Source: Zopfochytrium polystomum (taxonomy: Eukaryota > Chytridiomycota > Chytridiomycetes > Chytridiales > Chytridiaceae). From it: a stretch of 64,000 nucleotides of DNA. The notes below the pieces were generated by a model, which ran no database searches, was not told the origin of the DNA, and saw only the letters and a program-made list of their open reading frames with translations. The stretch covers positions 434,001 through 498,000 of the forward strand of contig JAIVFJ010000003.1 of the NCBI GenBank assembly GCA_025765615.1, written 5' to 3'. Made by a program: the position numbers and the translations under genes. This document shows, piece after piece, positions 16,127-35,464 of the stretch (positions are counted from its first letter, which is position 1; each line of letters opens with the position of its first letter).

Positions 16127-18349
16127 ATGAACGTGCTGGAGAGTGTTGCGCCCCTTGTCGGTGGTCCGACCTCGGACGGGCCAACCGCGACGCATGCCTG
16201 CATCCTCGACGCCCATACCCTCAACGCCAGGGCCATGCGCAATAGGCATGCAGCAGAGGTCGATGCGCTGCAGTTGCTCTTCCACAAGGCGTATTCCTCC
16301 TCCACCACAGCCTCGCGGAACTCGTCGCGTTCAACTTCCCTGCTATCGCTTGCGGTATTTTCGCTAATCCCCAGCTGGGCTTCTTCTCACCATTTATCGA
16401 CCTGTTATCTATCGATCTGCACTGTGAACAAAACGATGGTGCACCGCAGGTCCCCGAGGACGATGACCCTCCCGTGTCCCTTCCGTCTATGCCTCCGCCG
16501 CTCACGATGGATCTACCTGCAACTACCTTCTTCATCGTTCCCACAACCCATAAGCCCTCGAAGCGCCGTGTAAGCGATGTCTGCATGACCGACGATCTGC
16601 GAGCGATTCTCAAGCGGCACAAAGTGGATCCAATCAATTTTCGACTTGCAACAGCTACGAAGTTGGGGAACGAGTGCTCCGACGCCTCGCGCAGATCGCG
16701 GCCTGGGGAACATGACGACGACCTCAGCTCTCTCAACGCTGAAGAGCTACGCTCGCTCTGGCGGCAGACCGGTTAAGAATGTTTTGCGCGACACCGGGGG
16801 CCTCTTGAACCTTCGTGCTTATGAGGAAAAACCAAATCGGTTGGTTGACGACGTGGTCGAACGTGTTGAACCAATGCTCAGAGCTCCGCCGAAAGAGCGG
16901 GCCAGGCTTTTGGAGGAAGCTTCACTCTCGACAGGTTACGAGGAATTGACGATGGGCCAGTTCCATGTTAGTATCCTGTTAAGTACAGTGGTTAGGGTTC
17001 CTGTCTTGAAAATGCCAAACGATCCCTCTCTCAGCAAGCCTATGATCGCTGCTTCGACATACTGCGCCGTCTTCAGGACAGCGAAGAGTCATTGCTGAAG
17101 GAACGCCATGCAAAGGAAATTTCGGACTTTGAACATGGACCAGAACGAGCGTGGAGCCACATTTGCTGGGAGGGAACTTTCAACGAAGCCCTGAGAAGTG
17201 GAGTCGTTGGGCGACTTTCACACGTAACGATGTACACAGAGCATATGTTTCAAATTCCGCTGTGAGTTTTGCCGAGAAGAGCGTTCCTTTGAATGTTACT
17301 AACCTGGAGAGTCGTTCAGCGGCGAAGCGATTCAAACAAAAGGATTGTCGCCCGATTGGGATCGAATGCTTCCACAGCTGAACAGGGAAAGGTGCCGTTT
17401 TGGACTTCTGGCTGTGTCGAAGTCGGAACCAAAAGACTCCTTTGACAACATGCACCGCCTGCTTCGGTTAGTTCCACCCGTCGCGTTTCAATTGTTGTGC
17501 GAATGAACTAAAAACTGCTGCAGACAGGCACATGATTCCAACAAGGTACGAGCCAAGACACACTCGCTCACGTAGCGAGTCGATCTAACATTGCCTTAAA
17601 CAGTTTGTGTGGCTGGAGCGTGTGACATTGGAAGCTGGCCTCCTCAGTATTTACTTGATTCCAATGTCGAAAGTCATTGTTCCAAAGGCGCAAACAGCTC
17701 GCAACCCATCGTTGCGGGAGGCGGTTGGACGACCGGGCCATACTTTCCTGGTCGCCATGATCCTTGCAGGGGATTCTGGGGATCCTGTCGCGGCTCTAGG
17801 GCCCCCGCGGAACGCCAAACCTATTCGAAATCAATCCGCAGCTGTGGGTTTCCTGGGACGCAACCTTCGAGTACGTACCGAAGAAAGTTGCCGACGAAAA
17901 AGTGAAAGTAAGCTGCGTCGACCGGGCCATCTCGTTTACTTGAATAATGAACCAATCCTATCACCAACAAATTACAGGCCGAATACACGAAACTGTTTGA
18001 AGATGTGAAGATCGTTGAAGCGCAGCGAAACGAATTGGAGAAACTTCTTGGCGTTGTGCACGCACTAAGAAATGATGCAACACACGCAGCAGCAGGGCTG
18101 GATTCCCAGGAGATGGTGGCAACAGTGGAGAAGGATTTGAGGGAGCAGAATGCGAAGCTTGGGGCCCTCAAAAGACAGATTCAGCAGCTGGAGCAAGAGT
18201 ATCCTTCGAGTCTCAAGATTGCGACAGAACCTCTATTAGAGCAAGGGCAGCAGTCCCAGCCGCAACAGTTTCTGGCTCCGCCATTTCCCCAACAGCCCCC
18301 TAGACCACCTCAGCGGGATCCCCGTCTCAGACTGACCGGAAGTATGTAA
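16127..18349 (+). CDS. Unrecognised multi-exon protein with C-terminal coiled coil
   Basis: I do not recognise the family. The chain seems to start at ATG 16127 (MNVLESVAPLVGG). Visible pieces are a P-rich segment (LPSMPPPLTMDLPATT), a helical part (MTDDLRAILKRHKVDPINFR, LSSLNAEELRSLWRQ), helices near 16860-16970 (EPMLRAPPKERARLLEEAS), FDILRRLQDSEESLLKERHA near 17060, GLSPDWDRMLPQLNRERCRFGLL near 17360, and a likely C-terminal exon set beginning LFEINPQLWVSWDATFEYV. The last exon (from about 17980) is a clear coiled coil with heptads (RNELEKLLGVVHALRNDA, EKDLREQNAKLGALKRQI), a PQ-rich tail and the end RLRLTGSM. At least six introns are needed and several boundaries are unresolved. Its stop is 18 bp from the SEC6 stop on the other strand. 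Confidence 0.55.
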
Positions 18350-18367
18350 TAAATTATGTTTGGCAAC

Positions 18368-20806
18368 TCATTTCGCCAGTTTTGCAAAGAGAGTCGCGGG
18401 CCACTCTTTCCCCTGATTCTTTTCCTTTTCTTCTGCTACTTTGGTTCGACATTGTTCCATCACTTCCCTCACCAGAGTCCTGTCTAAATCATCACGGCGC
18501 TGAAGCAAATCCTCCACAAATGTCATGGGGACGTCAGGGTATGCTTTCCACAGCTTGTAAAAGTCCAAAAATACAAGGCGGGGGTTGCTCTCGATGACGC
18601 CAATCACCCTTTCGATCACTTCAAAGGCAGACTTTACGCGCTTGGCCCCCTTGAAGCGAGAAAAGAGTTCGACGACTGCGTCCAGATCCGACTTCATCCG
18701 CTCCACTGTCGTTGAGCCCTCAGCGGAGGAGCCGGCCACGCGAAACTTTGCACCCTTGTTCCGAAAAGTTTCCAAATACAGCACGAGGAGCCGATCCTGC
18801 AACTCGGAGACGAACTTGCTGAACAGGTACTCCTGCATGTGTTCCTGAAAGTCTGTGAGGTAGTCGTCCAGTGTGCCGACAACGTACTTTACGAGCGGCG
18901 GGAGGCTGGAACTGCTGCCATTATGCTCGTACCACTCGTTGCAGTGAAACTTTAAAAGCACTGGAACGACGTCTCGCAGGATAATGTCGATCATAAGCGC
19001 GTAGCAGCGGCGCGAAAGTTTCATGAAGCCGTCGAGCGCAACACCCTTGATGCGCGAGATCGCGAGCGGCTTGTACGGGTTCTCTGCCCCCGGCGGGCCG
19101 GCGGCGGCGACCAGCGCCGCGTCCCCAGCCGCGGTTTCACCCGTCGTCGACATCAGCGACTCGACTCGGCCGACCATGACCTCTGCAAACTCCGTTCCTC
19201 GCATCGCATCGTTCGCAAGGGCGATAATGTACTCTGGCAGCCCTTCTGCCGGCGCATCGCCGTGCTTTGTCGGTCCTTCAAAGAACCGCTGAACCTCCGT
19301 TTCGAGTGTTTTGGTCCAAGCCTTTTGGTATTCCTCAAGTGCAGTGCAGCATTCAATAATGACGTCGTACATGAGGGCGCCGCGGCTTGAGCCACTCACG
19401 ACGTCCAACTGCTGATTGAACATTTGAAAGACAATAACGGAGCCGCTGAGAAGGTACATTTGAGTGCCGTCCTGTGTCAGGTGGTCCATTGCGCTCCACA
19501 AAGTCTCGGGTTTCGGTGTTCAGCAGGTTGTTGAGCCACTCGCCCAGCTTTTGTCGAACTAGCTTGATGTACTCCAAAATGAGTTCTTCTTCGCGGTCGT
19601 CGAGCAGTCGTGGTTCCAAAAGCTCCTCACCAACGCCCAATCGCCCGTTCATGTTGGTATAATAATCACGGACCCACTTCAGAAGGGCCAAAATGGAGCC
19701 TGCTTCGACGACATTGGACGTAATAATTTTGTTAACCATATCGTAGATGCTTCGATGATATTCCAGCACAAAGAACAGGAAAATGTTGTACTTTTTTGGG
19801 AACCTTGGCTCGAGCGAGTCATGCACTAGTGTTAGGTCATCAATAATGGTTTCAGCCGATACCAGTAACTGAGTGAGGTCAGACTTTTCGGTCTCGTACA
19901 AGGTCCTAATTTGGGTGGATATCGACTCTCGTATCGTGTCCAGAAACTTTATTCTGTACGATTTTATCTGGCGGGTAGACATTGAGAGTATATCGGGAGG
20001 AGGTGCAGTATTTGACGGCGACACCGCCATCGGCGTGGCGGCCTCCGCAAGGGAAGCCTGATCATCCAGTCGCTCCTCCGCTTCGATAATCTTGGCAATC
20101 CTGATAATCGTCGTGAATCGATTGTTTTTGACCAGTTCGATAGTCCGTTCAACGAGCTTCCACAGGTGCGTCTCGAATGCTTCGACTAACGCGTCCAAAG
20201 GTCGAAAGTAAGATTGCAATGAGACCAAAAGGTCCGCACTGGCTCCGCTTGATCTCGCCATCGTTGTGCATTTGAACGTTTCCAGCTGCTGAAGTTGATA
20301 GTGAATGTACAAAAGGTTCTCTGAGCTGCCGTCACCTCGGCGAGCGTCCTCCTGAAGCAGACCCTGCAGCCTCTCGACCTGCGAATTGAGCTTTTGAAAC
20401 TGCAGCACCATTTCTTTCGTTGCGAGAAAGTTTTGGTGGGTTCTCGATATCTTTTTCGTTCAAGAAAGGGTCAATGGGTGGGAACTAACGCAAACAACTC
20501 AAAAACCTTTTTGATCTGCTCGTAGTTTTTGATCTGCCCGCTTGGGTTGTCCCAGAGCGCTTGGATTCCGGTCAAGTTCTTTCTGACCTGGGCCGTGGCA
20601 GCCTTGACGTGATCAAGATTGTTTAGGCCGCTCTGGGCGTCTTCCAGTTGGAGCTCGACGGCAGTTCTCAGCTGAGCGTCGATCGACGCACGCTCGGCAG
20701 CCATCTTCTTGCGCAGCGCGCCCAGCTTCACGAGGTCGTCCGGGTGGCGCAACAGTTCCTGCACGCGCACGATGGCGGCTTCGATGGCCTCGGACTCGAG
20801 CTCCAT
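18368..20806 (-). CDS. SEC6: Exocyst complex subunit Sec6 (EXOC3), with a frame break
   Basis: Subunit of the exocyst, which tethers secretory vesicles to the plasma membrane. It starts at ATG 20806 (MELESEAIEAAIVRVQELL). A 47-nt intron (20489-20443) joins KKVFELFA to THQNFLATKEMVLQF. The N-terminal half is helical; the middle carries ILEYIKLVRQKLGEWLNNLL, typical of Sec6, then SGSVIVFQMFNQQLDVVSG, and the C-terminal half has KLSRRCYALMIDIILRDVVP and LDDYLTDFQEHMQEYLFSKF. Length and motif order match the full family. At about 19475 the reading frame must move by +1 between NGPPD and QDGTQMYLL. Either one base is extra in the sequence, or a 28-nt GT-AG intron (19499-19472) removes the clash. 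The rest is frame-clean. Confidence 0.88.
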
Positions 20807-23033: not shown

Positions 23034-26000
23034 TCATTTAGGGCAGGGAGTTTGTTGTTTCTTGACTGGAGGCAAATATTTGGTGGCGGCGGTCGCGATG
23101 ACAATTCCTGACAACAATGACAATTCACTGCCTCCTAAGGTTCTAAACCAAAGTCCATTGCCACAATAATTACAAAATTTAAAACTCCGCAGCAATCCCA
23201 TCATGATCCGTTGGTCATTTTCGGTCTCCTCCTCATTCAGAGCTTCCGCTGTGAGTGATTTACGATTGCATCCCCTGCAAGATTCCGTCGCCGGCGTTGC
23301 TGCACTCAAGAGGGTCTTCGCGCAACGCTCTTTCACGACGACGTTGGTAATAAGCAGTGAGCAAATCATCTTCATAACAACATACCCCAAGAATGGCCCT
23401 TCGCGCATTTCGCCTTCCAAGGTGATTTGAAAATTATCGGGCTTTTGCAGGCAAGACACTCCTCCCGAGGGGGAAACGCAAGGCTGGATAGTGCAACCCC
23501 TTCATTCTCCGCCTCTTGCAGAACAGAGTTGTAGTCTTGGGCAACGCTGTGGCAGGTCGGGGATGCATTGATACTTTGGATTCCGGAAAATAAGTCCTTC
23601 AAGACGGGAACGGCGTCGTTCATGTCAGAAATGAGACAGTAGTCGGCCAGCAATGTCACGAGCAATAAATCTGAGTCTGGTAGACGTGGTTCAAGTCAGA
23701 GTATGTGAACCATGATTATCTGAAAGAAAATTCAACTACCCGCAAATTCATCGGAACCAAGCACGATCTTTCGGGTCGCCTCGACGACCAACCGCACATA
23801 GATCATCAATAGATGCCTTGAAATGGCAACAATGGCAGCCGTAGCCTTTGCCCGTATCATCTTATCTTTCAAGAAAGGCTAAAAAGAACACTTAGTTTTC
23901 ATTTGAAGTCCAGTCTATTTGAATCTTACCAGACATCTATCATACAAGAAATTAGTTATCCTCAGGCAGTTAAGCTTTCCGCTGCAGGCAAGGAGCATCG
24001 GTGCATGGAGAAGCTCGGTCCTTCGAACCATGTTGGAAAGCCAGAGCAGGAAAACGGTCTTACCCGAGCTGAGCGTTCTGAATGGTTGTCAAAGCGTCGG
24101 TGATGGGAAAGTCAAGAGTCTGGTCAAGGTCGACAAGGGAGTTGAGCAGCAGCGGAAAGAGGGTCGCGTTTCTGTCGGTCTTTCGGACAATTTCGTTGCA
24201 ACAGTAATAGCAGATATCCCAAAGCAGGAAGCCAGTCGACTTCTGCAAGACTGCATAAGGGTTAGCCTGTTTCTTCCCACTTTGATTGAAATGCTCACGG
24301 ATGTGGGAATCACTGATGTAATTCGTAAGCTGCTGTTGGAGGGATTTCTCTGTTTCTTCGTCGTCCTCAGTATATATTCTCTGGAGAAGAATGAACGAAA
24401 TGTCGACCGCTGGTGTTCGGTATTCCAGGTCCGTACATTCAACTCTGAGGGTATTGCTTAGTAAGAAGGAGATGCCGGGGGTACATACGTGTATATGATA
24501 GCATCAAATAGATCATTGCAGGAACGATCCGCTCCGTAAAATCGAAGGAATTTTCCTCCCACAAGGCCGCCACCTCTACCCAGGGGTCTGTCAGCATCAT
24601 TTTCCTCACCGTCCTCCTCCCCGGCGTCATTTGAATCTTGAAGCTCGGTGGAAAACTCAAGCACTTCTCGTGCTATCCTCAACGAGTTATCTTCAATGAC
24701 TTCTAAAGCACCGTTGACATGCGCAACTGTCAGGGCTGACCCTTCTGGAGTGTAAATACGGAGCTCTTCTCCCAGCGCACTCCAAACAAGACCTAAATGG
24801 AGATGAGCAGTAAGCTTTACCGTTTAGATATCATGGTGAGAGTACATACTGCTGGCAGGCATTTTGACTGGCAAGTTTACCGTAGAGAGCTCCTCTTTGC
24901 TCGGTTCGGCAGAAAGGTCCGACGGTGGAACCCACACCACAATGGTGCTTCCCTTCGACAAAGCAAGCCTGGGGTATTCGTTCTTACGCGTGTAAGCTGA
25001 CAAAATGACTTGGGGAAGAATTACCTCTGGAACGCAGAATCTCATTGTTGAAATTGGCCGGCGGTCGATTCCGGACAAATTGCGAAAGACGGTTATGTCG
25101 TCGAGAGCGGTGGCTCTCATTGAAATTTTGTGGACAAATGATTCGCCGCTGGAATAACAAGATGCAAGAAAACATGCTGTACATGATTGGTTGCTGCGGT
25201 CGAAAAGGCTACGGTACTTACAAGACAGTTCACCCTCCTGAAACCATGGAGATATCGACAATAAATTCACCCAAGCCTCTGATGGCTGAATCGACGTCAA
25301 AAACTCAGTAGAGTGAGATGATCTCGTGAATCTTTTTGAAGCCTTAAGTGATATGGCATTGACCAGAAGGGTTACACTAACGTCCACACGAAGATCGTCC
25401 CATCTTTGGATCCTGTTACCAGAAGGCAGGCTGATTCATTAACTGTGTCTCCATAAAAGAGCATTTCGGACCACGCCAGTGCTAAAGAAGAGTCAGCGTT
25501 GGTGGATTAGCGTGCTGCGTACAGAGGGTTTCGATCCGATTTGTTCTTGCCCATTTCGACTTTGGCTTGGCCCTGTCTCGTTCGCAGATGCTCAGTAACT
25601 GTTCGGAAACGTCGCAAATCTAAAACTTCGTCAGGAACAACAATCGCTGTAGCAAACGTACCATGTGCCAGACTGATTTTGCGGGGTTCCCAGCCGCCTC
25701 GAATATTCCAACGTGATGGCTGGTTGTAGCGGCCGCGATCACCGGCCTTTTAACGACACCATAAGCTCAGAGGTGTCAACGTAACTTTAAACAACGCACC
25801 CAAACGAGCGAGAGCAACCGACGGGTGACCAGCACATGCAGCGAAATTGCTCGTCGGCTGCGTCGGCTGACCGGACCTCCCAGTCTAATTCCAACAGTTG
25901 TAGAAAAAGGTGAAATTACACTGAACAGCTACTTACCGTCGTCCAACGGAGCAGAGACTACGTAAGACGTGGACTTTTGCTTTTTCTTCGTCAATAGGTC

Positions 26001-26263
26001 AACCGTTACCAGAGTCCTGTCCATTTCGACCTTCGACGTTCGCGTCTTGGTGCACCATTTTGGGGACTGGGATAACCTGTCAGAAAGATTCGAGGGGAGG
26101 GGGGGCGGCGAGGAATGACGCATGCTCAAACTAAAGCACTTACTAGTATGACGATGGCCTTTGCGGTGAGCGCGGCAATCTGGTTGTCGGGCGACCAGTG
26201 AAGGGCTGAGATGTGGGTTGGCGCAGACTGGAGCTTTGTGACGGCCGCCACAATGCCCTCCAT
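23034..26263 (-). CDS. TFIIIC WD40/zinc-finger subunit (TFIIIC90-like)
   Basis: Likely subunit of RNA polymerase III factor TFIIIC, acting at tRNA and other class III promoters. It starts at ATG 26263 (MEGIVAAVTKLQSAPTHISA) and has many short exons. N-terminal WD40-like pieces: ISALHWSPDNQIAALTAKAI, FRCMCWSPVGCSRS, PVIAAATTSHHVGIFEAAGN, LALAWSEMLFYGDT and LLVTGSKDGTIFVWTL. Around 24950-25110 comes HKISMRATALDDITVFRN and STIVVWVPPSD. The C-terminal zinc-binding part, after splicing, reads EECLACKSPIIF, KCAKGHSW|RCAKTLL, ESCRGC and FCNYCGNGLWF, matching the C..C / C..GH.W.RC / C..C spacing of the zf-TFIIIC family. A 32-nt intron (25657-25626) seems needed between KSVWHMV and LDLRRFR. The start codon is only 35 bp from the divergent cyclin L start. 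Confidence 0.78.
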
Positions 26264-26298
26264 GTCAAAAAGCTTGTCGGAGTCCCGTTGCACAAGCA

Positions 26299-27404
26299 AT
26301 GTCCTTGTCGCTCAAGAATGCAGTTGTCCCTCCCTCAGTCCTGGCCGCTGGAGCAACGCCCTCGAGACGCGACGGCATCACAGTAGGTCGGGCAGCCCAC
26401 CTATCGTTGTTGAAACGTGCGCCGACGACATAACCTGTGCCACTCCCGACGCATACTTAATCACAGGGCGGGAGCATTTGCTACGAGTCGAGGGCGCCAG
26501 ATTAATAGCAGAGGTCGGCATTTTACTGCGATTGTGGGTGCCCGGACTTGAACCCTGCCGCAACGCTAATGCTTCTCCGCAGACCACAAACATCGATTGG
26601 GACAGCGCAGATTCTTTTCCAAAGATTCTACTACGTTGCATCATTCCGCGATCACCAACCAAATGTCTGTCGTTCGGACGCTTCTCGCTCAGCTAATTAT
26701 AACTCATGTGGGATCGTAGGACATGGTGTTAGGGTCCATCTTCCTCGCTTCCAAAGCCGAGGAGACGCCACGGAAAATGAAGGACATCATAAATGTCTTC
26801 TTTTTCCTAACCGAAGGACACGACAAGGATGTTGGAGCTGAGGTTCCTTCAAACGTGAGACAAATCAGCTCATTGATGACCTCATGCTGACGGTGAATCG
26901 TTCTGGAGCGCCTGTATGCGCTCAAGGAAGCAATGATCGCAGCGGAGCTGCAGATTCTGGTCAAACTCGGATTCAACGTGCAAGTTCAACATCCTCACGG
27001 CTTTATGATAAACTATTTGCAAAGCTTGGACCTGTCCGATGACAAAGATTTCGCGCAGTTAGCGTGGAATTACTTGAATGATAGGTGCTTTTTTTCGATC
27101 TGGTTATTAGAAGCACTCACATGATCTTTGCATTCCAGCATGTGGACAGAAATCGTCGCAATATACCAGCCTCACGTTATTGCATGCGGCGCCATTCTGC
27201 TGGCATCACGCGTTCGAAAAATTCGTCTGCCCTCGCAACCTCCGTGGTGGGAGCTTTTCGATGCGAGAATGGAAGATAATGAGCAATTTTTGCCGGCTCT
27301 GTATGTGTCGTCCGTACTTACCGAGTTTCTATTCCGCTCCTGCACATTTAGAGATTGTTTGCGAGCATTTAATCGCGTTGTACCAATTGATGAGTACTGT
27401 TTGA
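26299..27404 (+). CDS. Cyclin L-type transcription/splicing cyclin
   Basis: Partner of a CDK11-type kinase acting in transcription and splicing. The ATG at 26299 begins MSLSLKNAVVPPSV, followed by TPSRRDGIT; the frame is joined by short GT-AG introns. The cyclin box has LLRVEGARLIAEVGILLRLP, QTSIGTAQILFQRFYYVASF, DMVLGSIFLASKAEETPRKM, MIAAELQILVKLGFNVQVQH, PHGFMINYLQSLDL, FAQLAWNYLND and QPHVIACGAILLASRV. The HPH and AWNYLND segments favour cyclin L over cyclin K/T. The 3' end is uncertain. One frame gives EIVCEHLIALYQLMSTV then TGA at 27402-27404, which fits the family helix but needs an intron of unclear donor. The other frame stays open to about 27687 and runs into the BET gene. Families often carry an RS tail, absent in the short model. 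Confidence 0.8.
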
Positions 27405-27490
27405 ATGTCTATAATGGCAAATGGGTGGCATGCACCAATTGTTCGGACACTAAATTTTTGAAATTCGTTCTCCGACAAAATCTGGAACCC

Positions 27491-29822
27491 ATGAGCAACG
27501 AGTGGATTGGGCCAGAGCCAACCACGGCATCGGCAGATACCACGGCCGGCTCAAACTGCCTCCCCGATCCACTTCAGTTCAAGCATAGCCTCCCCGACAC
27601 TGGTGAGCAGCCAAACGACCGTGAGCCTCCAGTTGCCAGAAAGCGTCTCCACGGTCGCGAGACCAGCCCAGAGAACACCACTGACAAGTAATGTCACGAG
27701 TGTGTTGGGTCTATTCACCAACTGATCTTTGCGGGTCATAGTTGCAGTGATAACCTTCGTAAGCGGATCAAGGTTCTCAAAGACGACCATGACACTTCGC
27801 TGAAACGCGAACCCTCTGCGTGTGCGTGCGAAGGCGGAATCAGGATGGAACCTGCCAACCTTCCATCGGCCGAACCGTTAATCGGTTTGGTGAATGCTCC
27901 CACACAACCGGAAGGGAAGACTGTCGCTTTAAACGCGGATGCCACGATTCGCTGTGAAGCACCAGAAATCCAAATCTGCGAAACTCCGTTCAATGCAAAA
28001 GCGGTAAATAACACGTGTTTACCATTGCATTCCCGACCATGACTCCTCACTTTTTGCCTCAAACAAAGGTGGCATGCTCGACGGAAACTCAAGAAACGGC
28101 GCTGGATTCGGTGCAACTGAGTTTTTGCGACAAAGTGCTCAAGAATGCCAAACGCTTGAAGGATGCGCCTCCGTTCCTTCACCCAGTTGACCCAGTTCTG
28201 CTTGGAATTCCGAACTACGTGGATGTAATCAAATGTCCCATGGATCTTTCGACGATTCAAAGGAGACTTTCGACCTGCTTTTACAAAAGGCAAACCGAGT
28301 TTATGAATGACCTCAGCTTGATGTTTTCAAATTGTTACCTATTTAATGGACGCGACTCTTTGATCGGACATATGGCGCAAAAGTTAGAGCACTACTTTCA
28401 AAATCAGATGAAGGGCCTTCCAACAAGAGTAAGTAGTGCACGATGGGTCAAGAGTCAAGCTAAAGTAGAAAGCAACAGACTGAAGGCTATCCAAGCCTCA
28501 GCAGAAAGGTTTGTCAACTCCGGGTCTCACTTGAATTCTTAGACTGAACGAACTTGTCCGCAGAAGCTCAGTGCAATACATGCAACGCCTGATTCTAAAC
28601 CACGAATCCGTGGTGCAGCTATCGCCTCTCCGAAGAAGGCAGCAACGCCGAAACGAATTAGAAAGCCTCCGCCAGTTAGCGAAAGGGCCGTCTTTAGATT
28701 CGCAACAACACTTCTCCGCGAGTTAAAAACAAAGCACTATTCCATCAGTTACCCTTTTCTTGCACCGGTCGATCCAATACGGCTGGGCATCCCGTACGTA
28801 CCCACTTGTGATAAAAAACCCAATGGACTTTGGAATGATGTTGCGAAAATTGGATTCGGGGCAGTATGCAACGCCAGCAGACTTTGAGGCCGATGCACGA
28901 TTGGTTTTTACCAACTGCTACACGTTCAATGCTCCCGAATCTGAAGTGTACAACCTTTGCCGACGGGTTGAAGCTATCTTCAACCAAAAATGGAGCAGGC
29001 GGCCAGTACCTACGACCGAACCAAAGAGTGTCAGAACAACCAGATTAAAGCCACTTCGTCCACAAGCGCAGCCGAGGGAAGTGCCAATGGTAGCCGCTGC
29101 CTCGGAACCCCCGCCGCAATCCGTGGCGACCGTGGCGTCTTCCCCTGAAATCACCTCTGAGAGTGCATCGTCCACTGATTCCGAAAGCCGATGATGACAG
29201 CGACAGCGACAACGACATCGGTAAGCAGAAACCTCGAGTTGTTCAGCTACGTAATTGATGTGAGACAAAGATTTCAACGAAATCCTTTCCATAATGAGTA
29301 TGAAGCGCAAATTTAGTCGGCTACTTCGGCAACAAGAAAGCAGAGGAGAAGGGGCTCGGTCGTTCTTCATCGGGTGCAAAGCTCGCACGTGAGAAGCAAA
29401 AAGGCATCTAAGTCAAAGGCGAAGTCAAAGCACAACATACCAAATTTTTTGGGTTCTCCGACACCACGGTCGAAGACAGACAAGAAGCCCTCGCGCAGAA
29501 CACGGCCAAGCGAGGAGTCGATGGTTTCGTCCGGTGCCATTCGCGAGTTGACACACGCAGAGAAACAAGAGCTGAGCAAAGGCATCGGCGAACTGGATTC
29601 TGATAAGCTGGAAGTGGTTTATCACATAATTCGGGCTAGCTTGCCCAGCCTCGATGTGGTAAGAACCAGTCTCGACAGTTTTCTTGCGTCTAACCTTTGG
29701 AAAACAGCAAGCGGTTGGTGCGGATGAAATCGAGGTGGACTATAGATACTCTCGACCGTGCAACAGCGTTCAGGCTTTACACATTCGTCCAAAGTGTGAC
29801 GGGCTCCCAGCAACTGTCCTAG
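27491..29822 (+). CDS. BET double-bromodomain/ET protein with several +1 frame breaks
   Basis: Reader of acetylated histones (Bdf1/BRD family). Proposed start ATG 27491 (MSNEWIGPEPTTASAD); exons include about 27491-27687, 27742-28003, 28069-28428 and from 28564. Bromodomain 1: FLHPVDPVLLGIPNYVDVIK, then PMDLSTIQRRL. Bromodomain 2: SYPFLAPVDPIRLGIP, then YPLVIKNPMDFGMMLRKLDS and LVFTNCYTFNAPESEVYN. The C-terminal ET domain: LTHAEKQELSKGIGELDSDK, LEVVYHIIRASLPSLDV, then EIEVD and IDTLDRATAFRLYTFVQS. The frame changes by exactly +1 inside bromodomain 2 (28798) and inside the ET domain (29741). Two further +1 shifts are likely in the linker (about 29189 and 29400). No GT-AG intron explains the first two. 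The gene may be a pseudogene, carry assembly errors or be recoded. It may also be joined to cyclin L upstream. Confidence 0.8.
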
Positions 29823-30077
29823 TCTTCTTCCAGTTCATCAGAGAGTGGAAAATTGCAGGAAAATAGTAACAGCACTTTGATACTATGAATGAAAAAATTG
29901 CTAATCCATGCATATGGCGATTTCGCATTAAATCTCAGAAATACCGAATGCGATTAGTGGAGGCTTTTTAGTTGCGTAGGAACTATACTATACTACTGAA
30001 GGAAAGTAATGGAATAAAGGAGGAATTAGTCGTGTGGTTGGGGAGATCTTGGTTGTGAAAAATATTGTCCGTTGAGA

Positions 30078-31327
30078 ATGGGGCCAAAGAAGCCTGGGAG
30101 CGCAAAGAAGAAAAATGCAAATGGAAAAGCAGGCGCCGCAGGTAGTCGCTTGCGAAGGCTCCTTGCTGAGACTCATTGATTTCAAGGTTCATCTGCGGCA
30201 GAGCAGGAGGCCGTGGAAAAACTAGCAAAGTCTGGAGTAGAGATCGACATTCTCCAACGAGAGCTCGGTTTGTGGCTGGCACTTCGGTGCCGCCGAGGAT
30301 CTCCTAACCCCAACAAAACCCATTCCAAGATCATTCCAATAGCCTCGCTGAGCGACTTAAATTTAGAAACTATGACCAAAAGTCGGTGATTAGAGCAGCT
30401 CAATGAAAAGCTTGTGTTAAAGTCAATGGATCGAATCGACGTCACATCTGGTAATTCATTTGGAACACCGAGCCCTTACCTGAGGAACTGCAAAACCAGA
30501 CATGACTCGGCAGTACAAAACCATGCAAGCAGAAATGACAGTGCGCATTCAGAGCCTTGAGGCGCAGGTGGCGGAATTAAAAACTAAGTTATGTATGTAT
30601 TATTGACAGTGGATCCTATTCATTCCATCCTATTCATCCCATCCTATTCATTCCAATCTAATGATTCGGGGAATCAAGCAATGACACAGAAAGCGGCACA
30701 GGATGCCGCATTGGAGTACCAGAAAGTTATTGAGCAAAAAGATGAAATCATTGAAGAACAGAACATCAAGATGGGTTACATGTCTTCGGAGTTCGAGAAC
30801 ATGCTCAACGTGCGCGACACTTTTGTGAAACTTTCGCTGACTACGAACATATCTTTGTGTCCAATTATTGCTTGCAGGAAACGTTGTCCAAAATGTCACG
30901 CAAGCTGGACGCCGTGTCGCAGCGGTGGAAAGAGAACGATACAATGCATCTTTCGGAAAGCAACTCCCGTCGCCTTGCAGATTTTCACTTGAGCCGGCTG
31001 ACGTCCAGAGGAGATCAGCATCACCAACAGCACCAGCAGCAACAACCACCGCAACACCAAATGCAGCAGCCCGTGTCGCAGCAGCAGCAGCAACAGCAAC
31101 ATCAGCAGAGGCCAGCAGTCCCGACCAGGACCACACGCGTCTCAAAGTGGAGGCGGCGGCCGCTGAAACATGTGCGGAGAGGAGGAGAGAGAGAAGAGAA
31201 GGGAGAGGAGTGCGTCTGTGTGTGCGTGCGTGCGTGCGTGCGTGTGTCCGCAATGTGTGTTACGCGCTCTCCTGTTTCAGGGCGTTCATGTCTAGTGAGG
31301 TCCGTGTTTTTGTCGGATGGGTTTTGA
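30078..31327 (+). CDS. DRC12: Dynein regulatory complex subunit 12 (CCDC153-like)
   Basis: Small coiled-coil protein of the nexin-dynein regulatory complex in motile flagella. It starts at ATG 30078 (MGPKKPGSAKKKNANGKAG, the lysine-rich start seen in this family). Exons: 30078-30141, 30187-30267, 30394-30450, 30500-30592, 30679 onward, and one from about 30891. After splicing it reads EIDILQRELEQLNEKLVLKS, DMTRQYKTMQAEMTVRIQSL, AALEYQKVIEQKDEIIEEQN, MGYMSSEFENMLN and ETLSKMSRKLDAVSQRWKEN: near-continuous heptads. The conserved part ends around LADFHLSRLTSR. The frame then stays open through a CAG/CAA polyQ stretch and a GTGC microsatellite to 31327, so the real C-terminus may be earlier or spliced. 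An apparent in-frame TGA at 30387 falls in an intron. Confidence 0.8.
30614..30655. repeat. Short tandem repeat inside a DRC12 intron
   Basis: Three imperfect copies of a ~14-bp unit (CCTATTCATTCCAT-like) lie within the intron between 30592 and 30679. Confidence 0.75.
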
Positions 31328-31430: not shown

Positions 31431-34400
31431 ATGAGCAGCAGCAGCACAGGAGGTCTCGGGAGCAGCACGAGCAGGGCCTCAGGCAGCGGCATTGTGTCCG
31501 CTGTGCCCCCCTCGCCCTATCACCCGCTCGGATTGAACAAGCCACGCCTAAAGTCAACCCTCATCGCACCGCCACGACCCGTCGATCTTCCCAGCCTTAA
31601 ATCGAAAGAGTCCTCTGGCCTCCCAATCGCTTTTAGGTGCTCTCGTCGCGCCTGTCCAACTCGTCCCTCTCTAAGAACCCCCTCAGCTCCTCTTCCTCGT
31701 CGGCTTCTTTGAATGCATCTCCTTCGTCTTCATCACCGTCTTCTGGGGCGACAAACTCCGACCCGACGGCGCCGGCGCCTTCTCCGTGGAGTCGTGTCGC
31801 CAAGCCATCTGCCACAGATAGTGCTGTGGCTTGGACGCCTGCGACCGCACCGGAATCAACAAAATCCGCTCATGCTCGCCCGCCAGGCCGACCTTGGGCC
31901 TCCACAGCAAGCTCTTTGCATTCTCGCAACTCGGTTGCCCTGCAGGAAGAGTTTCCCACCGCGGCAGAAGCCTTTCTGAAGGACAAGGCAAAACAACTTC
32001 AACATCATCATCACCCAGGTACAGTGGCGCTAAAGCACATCAAACGCACCCTGACGTCTTCTCAAAAGCCCCAGCTACTCCTGTCAGTGAACCATCTGCA
32101 ATACCGAATGGCCCCACGTCCACACCAAGCTCGAGGTTTGTACAAAGTCGCACATTCCATCAGTCTTATTCCTTTGGCTAGTGTCGCAGCGTTTTTCGAC
32201 ATGAACATAAGCTCTGCTTGGCTCGACGATGAAGAGATGGACTATTCTCACCTGCCAGTGTTCGAAGATGGAGTGGGTGTCGTTCCCATTGCTCCTGAGG
32301 CCGAACAAGATCCGACTTCCCAGTCGGAAGAAGCAGTACCACTAGCCCTATCCGTCGATTCGACGAGGGATCGGAGAGACACAAGATCAAGGCCTCGTTC
32401 GCCTGAACGAAGCAGAGATGATTCAACTAAGCTCAAAGATCGTGCAAGTCCAAGAGAAGTTGATGTCCCGCCAGAGGACGGCCGGCCATTACCGAAGGAC
32501 GATCCGAATGTTAGTCGAAGTGACGACCTCTTTGAAACCAACGGTAGAGGAGCATTGACCGATTCGCATGAAACTCGACAAGGCCAAAATCATACCGAAC
32601 GCAGCGACTTTGGCGAACGCGATGATCGTCATTCGAACTGGCGCTCGTCTGGCGCTGCTCCAAACTCCTACGATGAGCCTAAATTCGTGCTTGGTGGCCA
32701 CTTTGATGCTTCCGCTAGGGATATGTATAATAATGCGGAGAGACGCGACAGATCTCATAATAAGTTTGACGACTTTCGTGGAAGAGCTCAATATGATAGC
32801 CGTGTGGGAAGCGATAGGGGATTCCGACAGGAACGGGACCTTTCTTTCAGTGAACGAGACTATGGGCGGAGACACATGCATGACCTGGATCGAGGCAACG
32901 ATCGTGGACACGATAGGGCCTTCGATAGGGAAAGGGATCACGCTTTCCGGGTACGTGGTTATGACGATCGCGATAAAGAGCGGGGTTACGGTTTTAGCAG
33001 AGACCGTGATCGGGACGACCTCTTGCGGGATATGAGTGCCAATTGGCGGGAGCGGCGGGTGGTTGAACGGCCGTACGACATAGATTCTCGTACAAACGAA
33101 AAGGACAAACGAAATGGCAGTCGCCCAGCTTCGTATCATGGCAGCTACAAAAGCAGCGATGGGTTTGATTCCCTAGACCGGCGACGAGACTCAGGGCGAC
33201 CGCCTTCAGAAGGACTACGCAGACGGGATTCTTTTCGGTCCGACTTCAGTGGCTTCGACAGCACCTGGTCCAATCGGAGTGTGAGCTCTTCCCGCGAAGC
33301 TGATCTTCCCGGTGCTTCTTTGCAGTCTGACGTCTTGCCCGAGCGGAAACCACCCTCAAATGATGATGCAAAGGATGTTATCCCGACTCCAGCAGCTCAG
33401 GCAGATCCCGAGGCAGGAGGTATTTCCAACCCACTATCGTCTAGTAGTGACCCAGCAAATCACCGCCTTGAAGATGTCGAGTCAGGAGCCCAAACACTGA
33501 TTGTAACCGACGTTGGGGTGCACGCTGAGAAGAAGGTAGACTCGTTGAGGTCCAACGACTCGGCTACTACTGGGGCTTCGCCGAAAAGCAGTTCTGTAGA
33601 GCCTTCGACAAGACCAACGGACAAGCATTCCAGCACGAGCCCGCAGATGTCGTCAAGACCGTCAAAAGATGCCTTGAGCTGGAGACGGAAGGATCCGCTG
33701 CCACCTGTTTCGGAGTCAACCCTTCCGAACTCGGAGATCTCCAGCCAACACGGACCTCGGCAAGTGCCGATATCGATTCTGCAAAAGAAACCAGCTCTCG
33801 TAGCCTCTTCAGTATCTTCTCAATCTACTGAAATATCCCTTTCCCCCACAAATCGTTTGGATTTGCGTCAGGAATCCGCTTCCGAAGAGGCCGATGCTCA
33901 ATCGAATGCACGGCCTCATGCGGCTGGATTGAAGCTTTTGGAGAAGAACCCAACCCAAATTTCAAAGAAGCATTCAACCTCGTCGCTGAGCCATTCGGAT
34001 CGACCCCGTCCTGCTTCAAAACTGCGTGATGAAGATTTTCTCGCGGTCATGTCCCAAATCAGAACTATGATTGGTGAAGCGAACGAGGATGGCCGGGTAT
34101 CAACCGCGACCTCCCCGCAGTCTTCAACCGCATCAACGCCAATACCCGCACGCCGACGAGACGAGTCCCCAACTGGTGTTGTTCCGTCTAGCGTTCTGTC
34201 AGCCGAAGAGAAGCGAGGTGTTAAAGCGAAAGGTTTTCCACAGCGCGCTACGAAAGCTGAGCGGATAGGCAATTGGCGTGAGAAATCAGCGTTGGGAAGC
34301 AGCAGCCCTGAAAATGGACAAGGAGGCGAGACAGCGCTGAACCAGTCAACGGCTGCAGCCACGACGGTTGAGAAAGGCGATCCCGTCGAGCACACTCACG

Positions 34401-34761
34401 CAGTAGGGCAATCGGGTCACAATACGAGGGTCGTAACGGGAATTCTGAAGCCGGAACGAAGTCCTTCAAACGTCGCTCCAGACACGCCGATTGTTCACAC
34501 AGTGAGTACCAACGTCCACTGCTGCTTAGGCCGACCTAACGCTGTTTTTGGTAACTTTCTTAGAACCAAGGGACTCCGCCGCCGAATGCCCCACCTCAAG
34601 ATCAGGAGGTTTACACTTTCCCATTCCCTCCAAATGCGTGGCAGTTCCAACTCGACCCTAACGCTCGCCCTTCGCCACCGCCGCACCAGCCGCAATCGAA
34701 CCATTATTCTTTGCCACCTATGCTCGTTGTGCACCCTGCCCTTTACACAATAAAGCACTGA
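31431..34761 (+). CDS. Large disordered R/D/S-rich protein, BAT2/PRRC2-like N-terminus
   Basis: The proposed start ATG 31431 opens MSSSSTGGLGSS, followed by GLNKPRLKSTLIAPPRPVDL and PSLKSKES, which resembles the BAT2/PRRC2 N-terminal motif (PRPVNLPSL). A second frame entered near 31637 is serine-rich, then carries PWSRVAKPSATDSAVAW, SVALQEEFPTAAEAFL and SSAWLDDEEMDYSHLPVFED, again like BAT2/PRRC2. The middle (about 32340-33200) is dense in RD/RG/DR pairs (RDYGRRHMHDLDRGNDRG), an RNA-binding-like low-complexity region. The last intron (34502-34564) leads to NQGTPPPNAPPQDQ, QNHYSLPPML-like P/Q-rich sequence and the stop TGA at 34759-34761. The splice linking the first two frames near 31590-31637 is not settled. 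PRRC2 proteins act in stress-granule and translation biology; for this gene that is inference. Confidence 0.6.
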
Positions 34762-34890: not shown

Positions 34891-35464
34891 TTACTCCTGG
34901 GGGCGGGGACCACCACGGCCAACACCTCCACGCTAACAAAGAAAAAGGTTACCAGGGACGCCGGGAAAGCGCATGCACTTACGAATTCAGGGCGGAAGTC
35001 ACCTCCGGCACCTTCCTTCTTCTCGCCGGCGTCGCGGCGGCGGTAGCCCTCGCCATCGCCCCGTGGCCTGTAGCTGTCGCGCGGGGGGCGGTCACCTTCC
35101 GGGCGCGGGCGCAGACCAGTCTTGGTAGTCTTGATGTGGGTGCGGGGGACGATCTCAACAGGGAGGTGCAGGTACTTGCGGAGGTACTCGATGCCCTTGT
35201 CGGTCAGCGAGTAGTAGTAGAACTGCCACGAGAACTGAGTCTTGACCAGCTCGCGGGACTCCAACGACTGCATCGCCTTGATGACCTGCAAGTTGGGGAC
35301 ATTGATGTCGCGGTGCCTGGGAAGGTTGAAGTCCTTCTTGGCGACGAGAACACCCTCCTGGAAGAGGTACCTGATCGGCAAGATCTCAGAGATCTGTGAC
35401 CAATGCTCAAGATACAAAACACTTACTGGTAGATCTTCTTCCGGTTCTCGGTGGGGATGAGCAT
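34891..35464 (-). CDS. RPS10: 40S ribosomal protein eS10
   Basis: Small-subunit ribosomal protein. ATG at 35464 begins [13 protein letters not shown]; an intron follows, then [60 protein letters not shown] and [14 protein letters not shown], the winged-helix S10_plectin domain. The R/D/G-rich tail ([19 protein letters not shown]) is interrupted by a second intron; the last exon codes RGG-type residues ending RPQE with TAA at 34891-34893. Length and the intron straight after the 13th codon are normal for a ribosomal protein gene. It is convergent with the BAT2-like gene (129 bp between stops). Confidence 0.96.

Follow-up and report, generated by a model that had tools for sequence, protein, structure and literature searches.

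Five +1 frame steps in a duplicated BET bromodomain gene of Zopfochytrium polystomum may be one-base insertion errors of the assembly

The assembled sequence of a BET bromodomain gene in the chytrid fungus Zopfochytrium polystomum is best read with five +1 frame steps, at each of which one base must be skipped for the conserved protein to continue. The steps are genuinely present in the sequence as assembled. The gene lies in the window that we analyzed, a 64,000-nt stretch of contig C3 (JAIVFJ010000003.1, positions 434,001 to 498,000; assembly GCA_025765615.1), and all coordinates below refer to this window unless a contig is named. Breaks of the same type occur in two neighboring genes, DRC12 and Sec6, and an intact paralogue of the BET gene resides on contig C2. 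The reading that we prefer, with a probability of about 0.57, is that the +1 steps are errors, single bases inserted over a local patch of a fast-evolving BET duplicate.

BET family bromodomain proteins include BRD2, BRD3, BRD4, and yeast Bdf1. With this family the window gene shares two bromodomains followed by an ET domain, in that order (Pfam Bromodomain at C3:462126-462383 and C3:462796-462963, and Pfam BET at C3:463548-463655, the second ET half being found by alignment), and its exons are arranged as in the intact C2 gene, DFJ73DRAFT_806491. On the plus strand, alignment to the C2 paralogue identified a homologue of C2 exon 2 at 27748-28003. This is followed by a frame-clean exon containing bromodomain 1 (28069-28428; Pfam match, with no step by alignment or codon usage); a 30-nt exon equal in size to its C2 counterpart (28479-28508); an exon encoding bromodomain 2 and an acidic linker (28564-29220; alignment, with the Pfam match to bromodomain 2 from 28796 on); exon E, which encodes a basic linker and the first half of the ET domain (29271-29658; positions 2-37 of the Pfam BET profile at 29548-29655); and an exon, placed by alignment, that encodes the second ET half and ends in TAG (29708-29822). 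The introns retain their GT..AG ends, with no splice site lost, and the alignment of the gene to C2 contained no in-frame stop before the TAG at 29820.

What separates the window gene from the BET family is its frame. After splicing it does not form a single continuous frame: as assembled, with its five +1 steps, the coding sequence consists of six frame blocks, and the database record has only bromodomain 1 whole. This 290-amino acid record, whose annotated start is the ATG at 27845, is identical to the spliced open frame 27845-28884, which is closed by a stop at 28885. The annotation of the window gene simply ends after the first step. At the other end of the gene, the last cyclin L-like open stretch (27125-27748) runs stop-free into a donor site whose phase matches that of intron 1 in the C2 BET gene. 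The BET gene may begin upstream of the annotated ATG, or it may overlap the cyclin L-like gene at 27125-27748.

We located the steps by frameshift-aware alignment of the window exons to the 734-amino acid C2 protein, also reading all three frames, and by an alignment-free scan of codon usage. The alignment placed steps at 28792-28795, 29189, 29330-29333, 29370, and 29738-29741. The codon-usage scan recovered four of the five, at 28798, 29178, 29306, and 29396, and found none in the bromodomain 1 exon. All five are +1 steps on the plus strand. Step 1 (28792-28799) falls within bromodomain 2 and step 2 (29178-29191) within the acidic linker; each was seen by both methods. Step 3 (29306-29333) and step 4 (29370-29403) are also seen by both, although codon usage and alignment differ by ~25 nt in placing them. 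Step 5 (29738-29742) falls within the ET domain, where the codon-usage scan missed it and its position, 29741, is taken from the C2 alignment. Two more steps that the alignment introduced after the ET domain, at 29802 and 29821, were dropped, as they lie in the low-complexity tail around the TAG.

A sequence-only reading of the window had proposed between two and four +1 steps in this gene. All four hold, those in bromodomain 2 and the ET domain being fixed by the C2 alignment and the linker pair by alignment together with codon usage. The count was too low, however: a fifth step, which that reading missed, must be added at 29306-29333, since the frame class of exon E (29271-29658) changes from 1 to 2 and later to 0. 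The skipped base in bromodomain 2 had been set at 28798; there is a step there, but the exact base is not fixed, and the C2 residues PTYPLIIK favor an earlier position. That every step is +1 and none is -1 remains the best reading throughout, although on open frames alone a single -1 could replace steps 3 and 4; codon usage and the K/E-rich character of the linker favor two +1 steps. Five +1 steps are the best count for the gene. The AC or GC that had been noted before three of the sites is absent at the third BET step and in DRC12.

The codon-usage scan is not independent proof of the steps. The C2 gene is among the 32 sequences (40 kb) on which it was trained, and for this reason the lack of steps in three C2 exons cannot serve as a fair control. 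At the lower of two penalties, the scan made a false excursion at 28985-29076 in the BET gene, and in an RS-rich open frame at 31900-34700 it made many false switches at the lower penalty and two at the higher. Only at the lower penalty did it detect the DRC12 step, and it missed the ET step at both.

The C2 paralogue contains no frame step, and its protein is 100% identical to Zopfochytrium polystomum DFJ73DRAFT_806491. A second intact BET gene, combined with silence of the window copy, had been named in advance as the sign of a pseudogene; the intact gene exists. C3 and C2 share a collinear block that comprises ADAM, BET, and one conserved gene near 35 kb, while cyclin L and DRC12 were matched only on C3 in our searches. 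An old duplicated block that lost genes on one side would show this layout, and the window BET gene is an ancient duplicate, probably an ohnologue of the intact C2 gene. Between the two copies pN is 0.30 and pS is 0.88, figures that include nine aligned codons of one ET row read in the wrong frame, with stops in the translation. Since synonymous change is saturated, the duplication is old.

In a tree of 18 sequences (the two BET copies and 16 chosen among 120 listed homologues), both Zopfochytrium genes split from the other 16 with a bootstrap of 100, and the window branch is ~5-fold longer than the C2 branch (0.405 versus 0.084). The window copy keeps 75 of 87 readable conserved positions and departs at 12, whereas the C2 copy departs at 4 of 89 (Fisher p 0.038). 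When conserved sites before and after the first step are compared, those after it do not fare clearly worse (Fisher p 0.28, approximate counts). Among the 12 matches listed, none apart from the window copy's own record looked like an orthologue of the window copy rather than of C2. An intact twin and a faster window branch, as a duplicated pseudogene would have, are both seen, but the disablements are those of the assembled sequence and may be absent from the DNA of the organism.

The neighboring genes had been described as frame-clean. This is correct for ADAM, DRS1, and GH3 where they were matched: the matched stretches of ADAM, GH18, GH3, and the DRS1 helicase were free of zero-gap breaks. 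In this check, the GH3 N-terminal domain lacked a match over its first 104 positions and Helicase_C over its first 49. A frame change in DRS1 was rejected as a break, as it is an ordinary intron. The description does not extend to two genes that had not been listed, DRC12 (broken at ~30390) and Sec6 (broken at ~19475). Outside the cluster there is 1 break in ~8.1 kb checked, a sum that counts Pfam-matched stretches and possibly includes in-frame introns, versus 5 in the 0.92 kb of BET from the first step, which is above chance. In that comparison the DRC12 length covers just the exon with the break, which makes the p-value for DRC12 too low.

DRC12 (CCDC153-like; 30076-31000, plus strand), which was matched only here in the assembly search, begins ~250 bases past the BET gene. 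The spacing in relatives, the codon scan, and the stop position place a +1 step at 30385-30392, possibly as far as the TGA at 30404, and ~0.65 kb beyond the last BET step. The exon at ~30317-30450 is in one frame up to RLKFRNYDQKSVI and then continues as conserved sequence in the next frame, and the 20-residue spacing at the step, counted by eye, is the same as in P0002 and P0003. The public DRC12 model, DFJ73DRAFT_808007 (P0142), bridges the frame break by omitting 25 nt at 30316-30450 (counted by hand) and loses eight residues that are retained by six of seven aligned relatives.

Sec6, an exocyst gene on the minus strand (18300-20500), has a +1 step near 19472-19484, and the two halves of its Pfam match abut with zero gap, in different frames, at 19473-19477. 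This gene is also present on a second contig, C485. Two pieces of C485 match the window, one at 18396-20483 (98.7%) and the other at 25977-26940; the contig ends there, ~0.8 kb short of the BET exon at 27748. In the first piece, C485 and C3 differ at 15 places in 2.1 kb, mostly by indels and in both directions. Near the Sec6 step, the noisy C485 is without two C3 bases (19472 and 19461) within 12 nt; losing one C3 base would fit the Sec6 frame, while losing both breaks C485 in the opposite direction. By Pfam match, C485 is broken at the Sec6 step and at up to four other junctions. The disagreement between C3 and C485 exactly at the Sec6 break favors an error in C3, short of proof. We looked in the assembly for another contig that covers the BET or DRC12 steps and found none.

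Elsewhere in the genome, we examined 39 chaperonin exon junctions, counting twin contigs separately. Introns of 43-100 nt fit 36 of these, two junctions, on C101 and C9, are ambiguous and have a long unmatched profile stretch, and one is a clear break. The break is on a small contig, C711, and its twin on the large contig C58 is clean; C711 has three bases missing in 1751 relative to C58 and is otherwise identical. No clear break was seen on large contigs among the chaperonin junctions, which represent one family. Three contig pairs that we compared as an error yardstick had many indels in open frames; as these open frames may not be gene frames, the counts are not used. On contig C5, 127 kb separates two chaperonin genes whose match scores are almost the same (C5:202982-204760 and C5:329907-331685), the result of either recent duplication or misassembly.

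Could the mismatched stretches be spliced out? A GT-AG intron in bromodomain 2 had been excluded, and in effect this stands, although a frame-fitting stretch of 67 nt (28798-28864), the shortest GT..AG candidate, can be drawn there; it would remove YPLVIKNPMDFGMMLRKLDSGQ, and with it 22 conserved residues. Each of the seven steps can be bridged by some GT..AG stretch of 20-120 nt that fits the frame, and six of them by one of normal size (at least 43 nt); the public DRC12 model already leaves 25 nt out. Even so, unrecognized introns are a very improbable explanation. Splicing would delete conserved residues, both in bromodomain 2 at step 1 and in DRC12, and the affected stretches are conserved as coding sequence. 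At DRC12, moreover, the only candidates that fit are 25 and 37 nt long, below the intron sizes implied in the chaperonin genes.

An account with slightly less to recommend it still is that the extra bases are genomic and that full-length BET, DRC12, and Sec6 proteins are made by passing over them, through frequent +1 ribosomal frameshifting or through mRNA editing, and not always at stops. That seven steps in three genes are all best read as +1, and that protein conservation continues past the steps despite the old duplication, would fit such skipping. In the pre-step frame, the next stop lies 29, 1, 19, 2, and 41 codons on for BET steps 1 to 5, 4 codons on for the DRC12 step, and ~50 for the Sec6 step. 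BET steps 2, 3, and 4 and the DRC12 step, which lie in loosely constrained stretches, can therefore be placed at the next stop codon, as in Euplotes. The bromodomain 2, ET, and Sec6 steps are not at a stop codon, because the next stop is 29, 41, and ~50 codons on, past conserved sequence. No motif shared by the seven steps was seen by eye, the C2 twin is step-free, and the sole clear break among the chaperonin junctions is on a small contig with a clean twin. Moreover, five steps in one mRNA would each demand very high efficiency.

The +1 breaks in DRC12 and Sec6 shift the balance toward insertion errors; a decaying duplicate comes next, and recoding or editing trails by a wide margin. Of the explanations listed in the sequence-only reading, insertion error and a dying gene thus lead, and the argument from clean neighbors fails on these two genes. 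The main rival, less probable than assembly error, is that the window copy is a genuine and recently disabled duplicate: after an old duplication of the segment or of the genome, the C2 gene would have retained the function while the window copy accumulates indels, and the DRC12 and Sec6 breaks would be separate errors. Decay would account for the densest cluster lying in a gene with an intact twin in a collinear ADAM-BET-conserved gene block, and it agrees with the longer branch and the greater number of departed conserved positions, with a database model that stops at 290 amino acids, and with the absence of zero-gap breaks from the matched parts of ADAM, GH18, GH3, and DRS1. It does not sit easily with five of five disabling changes that are best read as +1, unaccompanied by an in-frame stop before 29820 or a lost splice site, or with conserved sites that, by approximate counts, are not clearly worse after the first step. 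It also leaves the DRC12 and Sec6 breaks unexplained.

For insertion errors, in turn, the breaks ignore gene boundaries, as DRC12 and Sec6 are also broken. Assembly quality is uneven: contigs disagree by small indels that break genes, both in C485 versus C3 and in C711 versus C58, where the chaperonin is broken. Moreover, the BET blocks are conserved as protein, and most of the residues conserved in relatives are retained in them. From this we infer that the BET steps have an assembly cause. The extra bases would have been put in by the assembly in a poorly corrected patch of consensus at ~28.8-30.4 kb, from BET into DRC12, and in the organism a single frame would run through the window BET gene, as in its C2 twin. 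Most errors in raw PacBio reads are insertions. Several observations weigh against such errors. All seven steps are best read as +1, for which the even chance is 0.008 (two of the BET steps could be one -1), and neither error nor decay explains well why this is so. In addition, the cluster is densest in the one broken gene for which an intact duplicate was found, and C485, itself frame-broken at Sec6, differs from C3 in both directions.

Known systems offer two comparisons. In PMC12007338, indel errors are recounted as fragmenting genes in long-read assemblies, including one PacBio-only assembly. The single-base indels that break conserved genes are common to those assemblies and to ours; the error sets described there include deletions as well as insertions, whereas the Zopfochytrium steps are all best read as +1, and the comparison would apply if this genome too is a long-read assembly. 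Literature searched for Zopfochytrium and WB228 contained no description of how the genome was sequenced; Illumina RNA-seq of strain WB228 is described in PMC7482067. Euplotes ciliates are reported to have abundant +1 frameshifting in nuclear genes (PMC10235951; PMC4759687). Many +1 steps in ordinary nuclear genes are a feature shared with the Zopfochytrium assembly, but the Euplotes shift is specified by stop codons internal to the mRNA (PMC10235951), while three of the seven Zopfochytrium steps, those in bromodomain 2, ET, and Sec6, cannot be at a stop.

As the same type of break occurs in neighboring genes, assembly error or an ordinary dying duplicate, rather than a novel mode of reading genes, is the most likely cause. 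Should the steps prove to be errors, the public bromodomain record of 290 amino acids and the DRC12 model, with its 25 nt omitted, would probably both be wrong, and counts of gene loss for Zopfochytrium could be inflated. If they reflected true recoding, a fungus would be reading its nuclear genes through several +1 steps each, a very surprising outcome.

Fast-evolving second BET copies may recur, as a second copy in another chytrid, Physocladia obscura (P0018), is also on a long branch, 0.478 versus 0.025 for its twin P0004. Within the duplicated block, the gene at 34965-35375 had no Pfam match in three frames. Its protein is 91% identical (137 amino acids) to that of its counterpart at C2:92648-93097, and the pair is far more conserved between the blocks than BET or ADAM.
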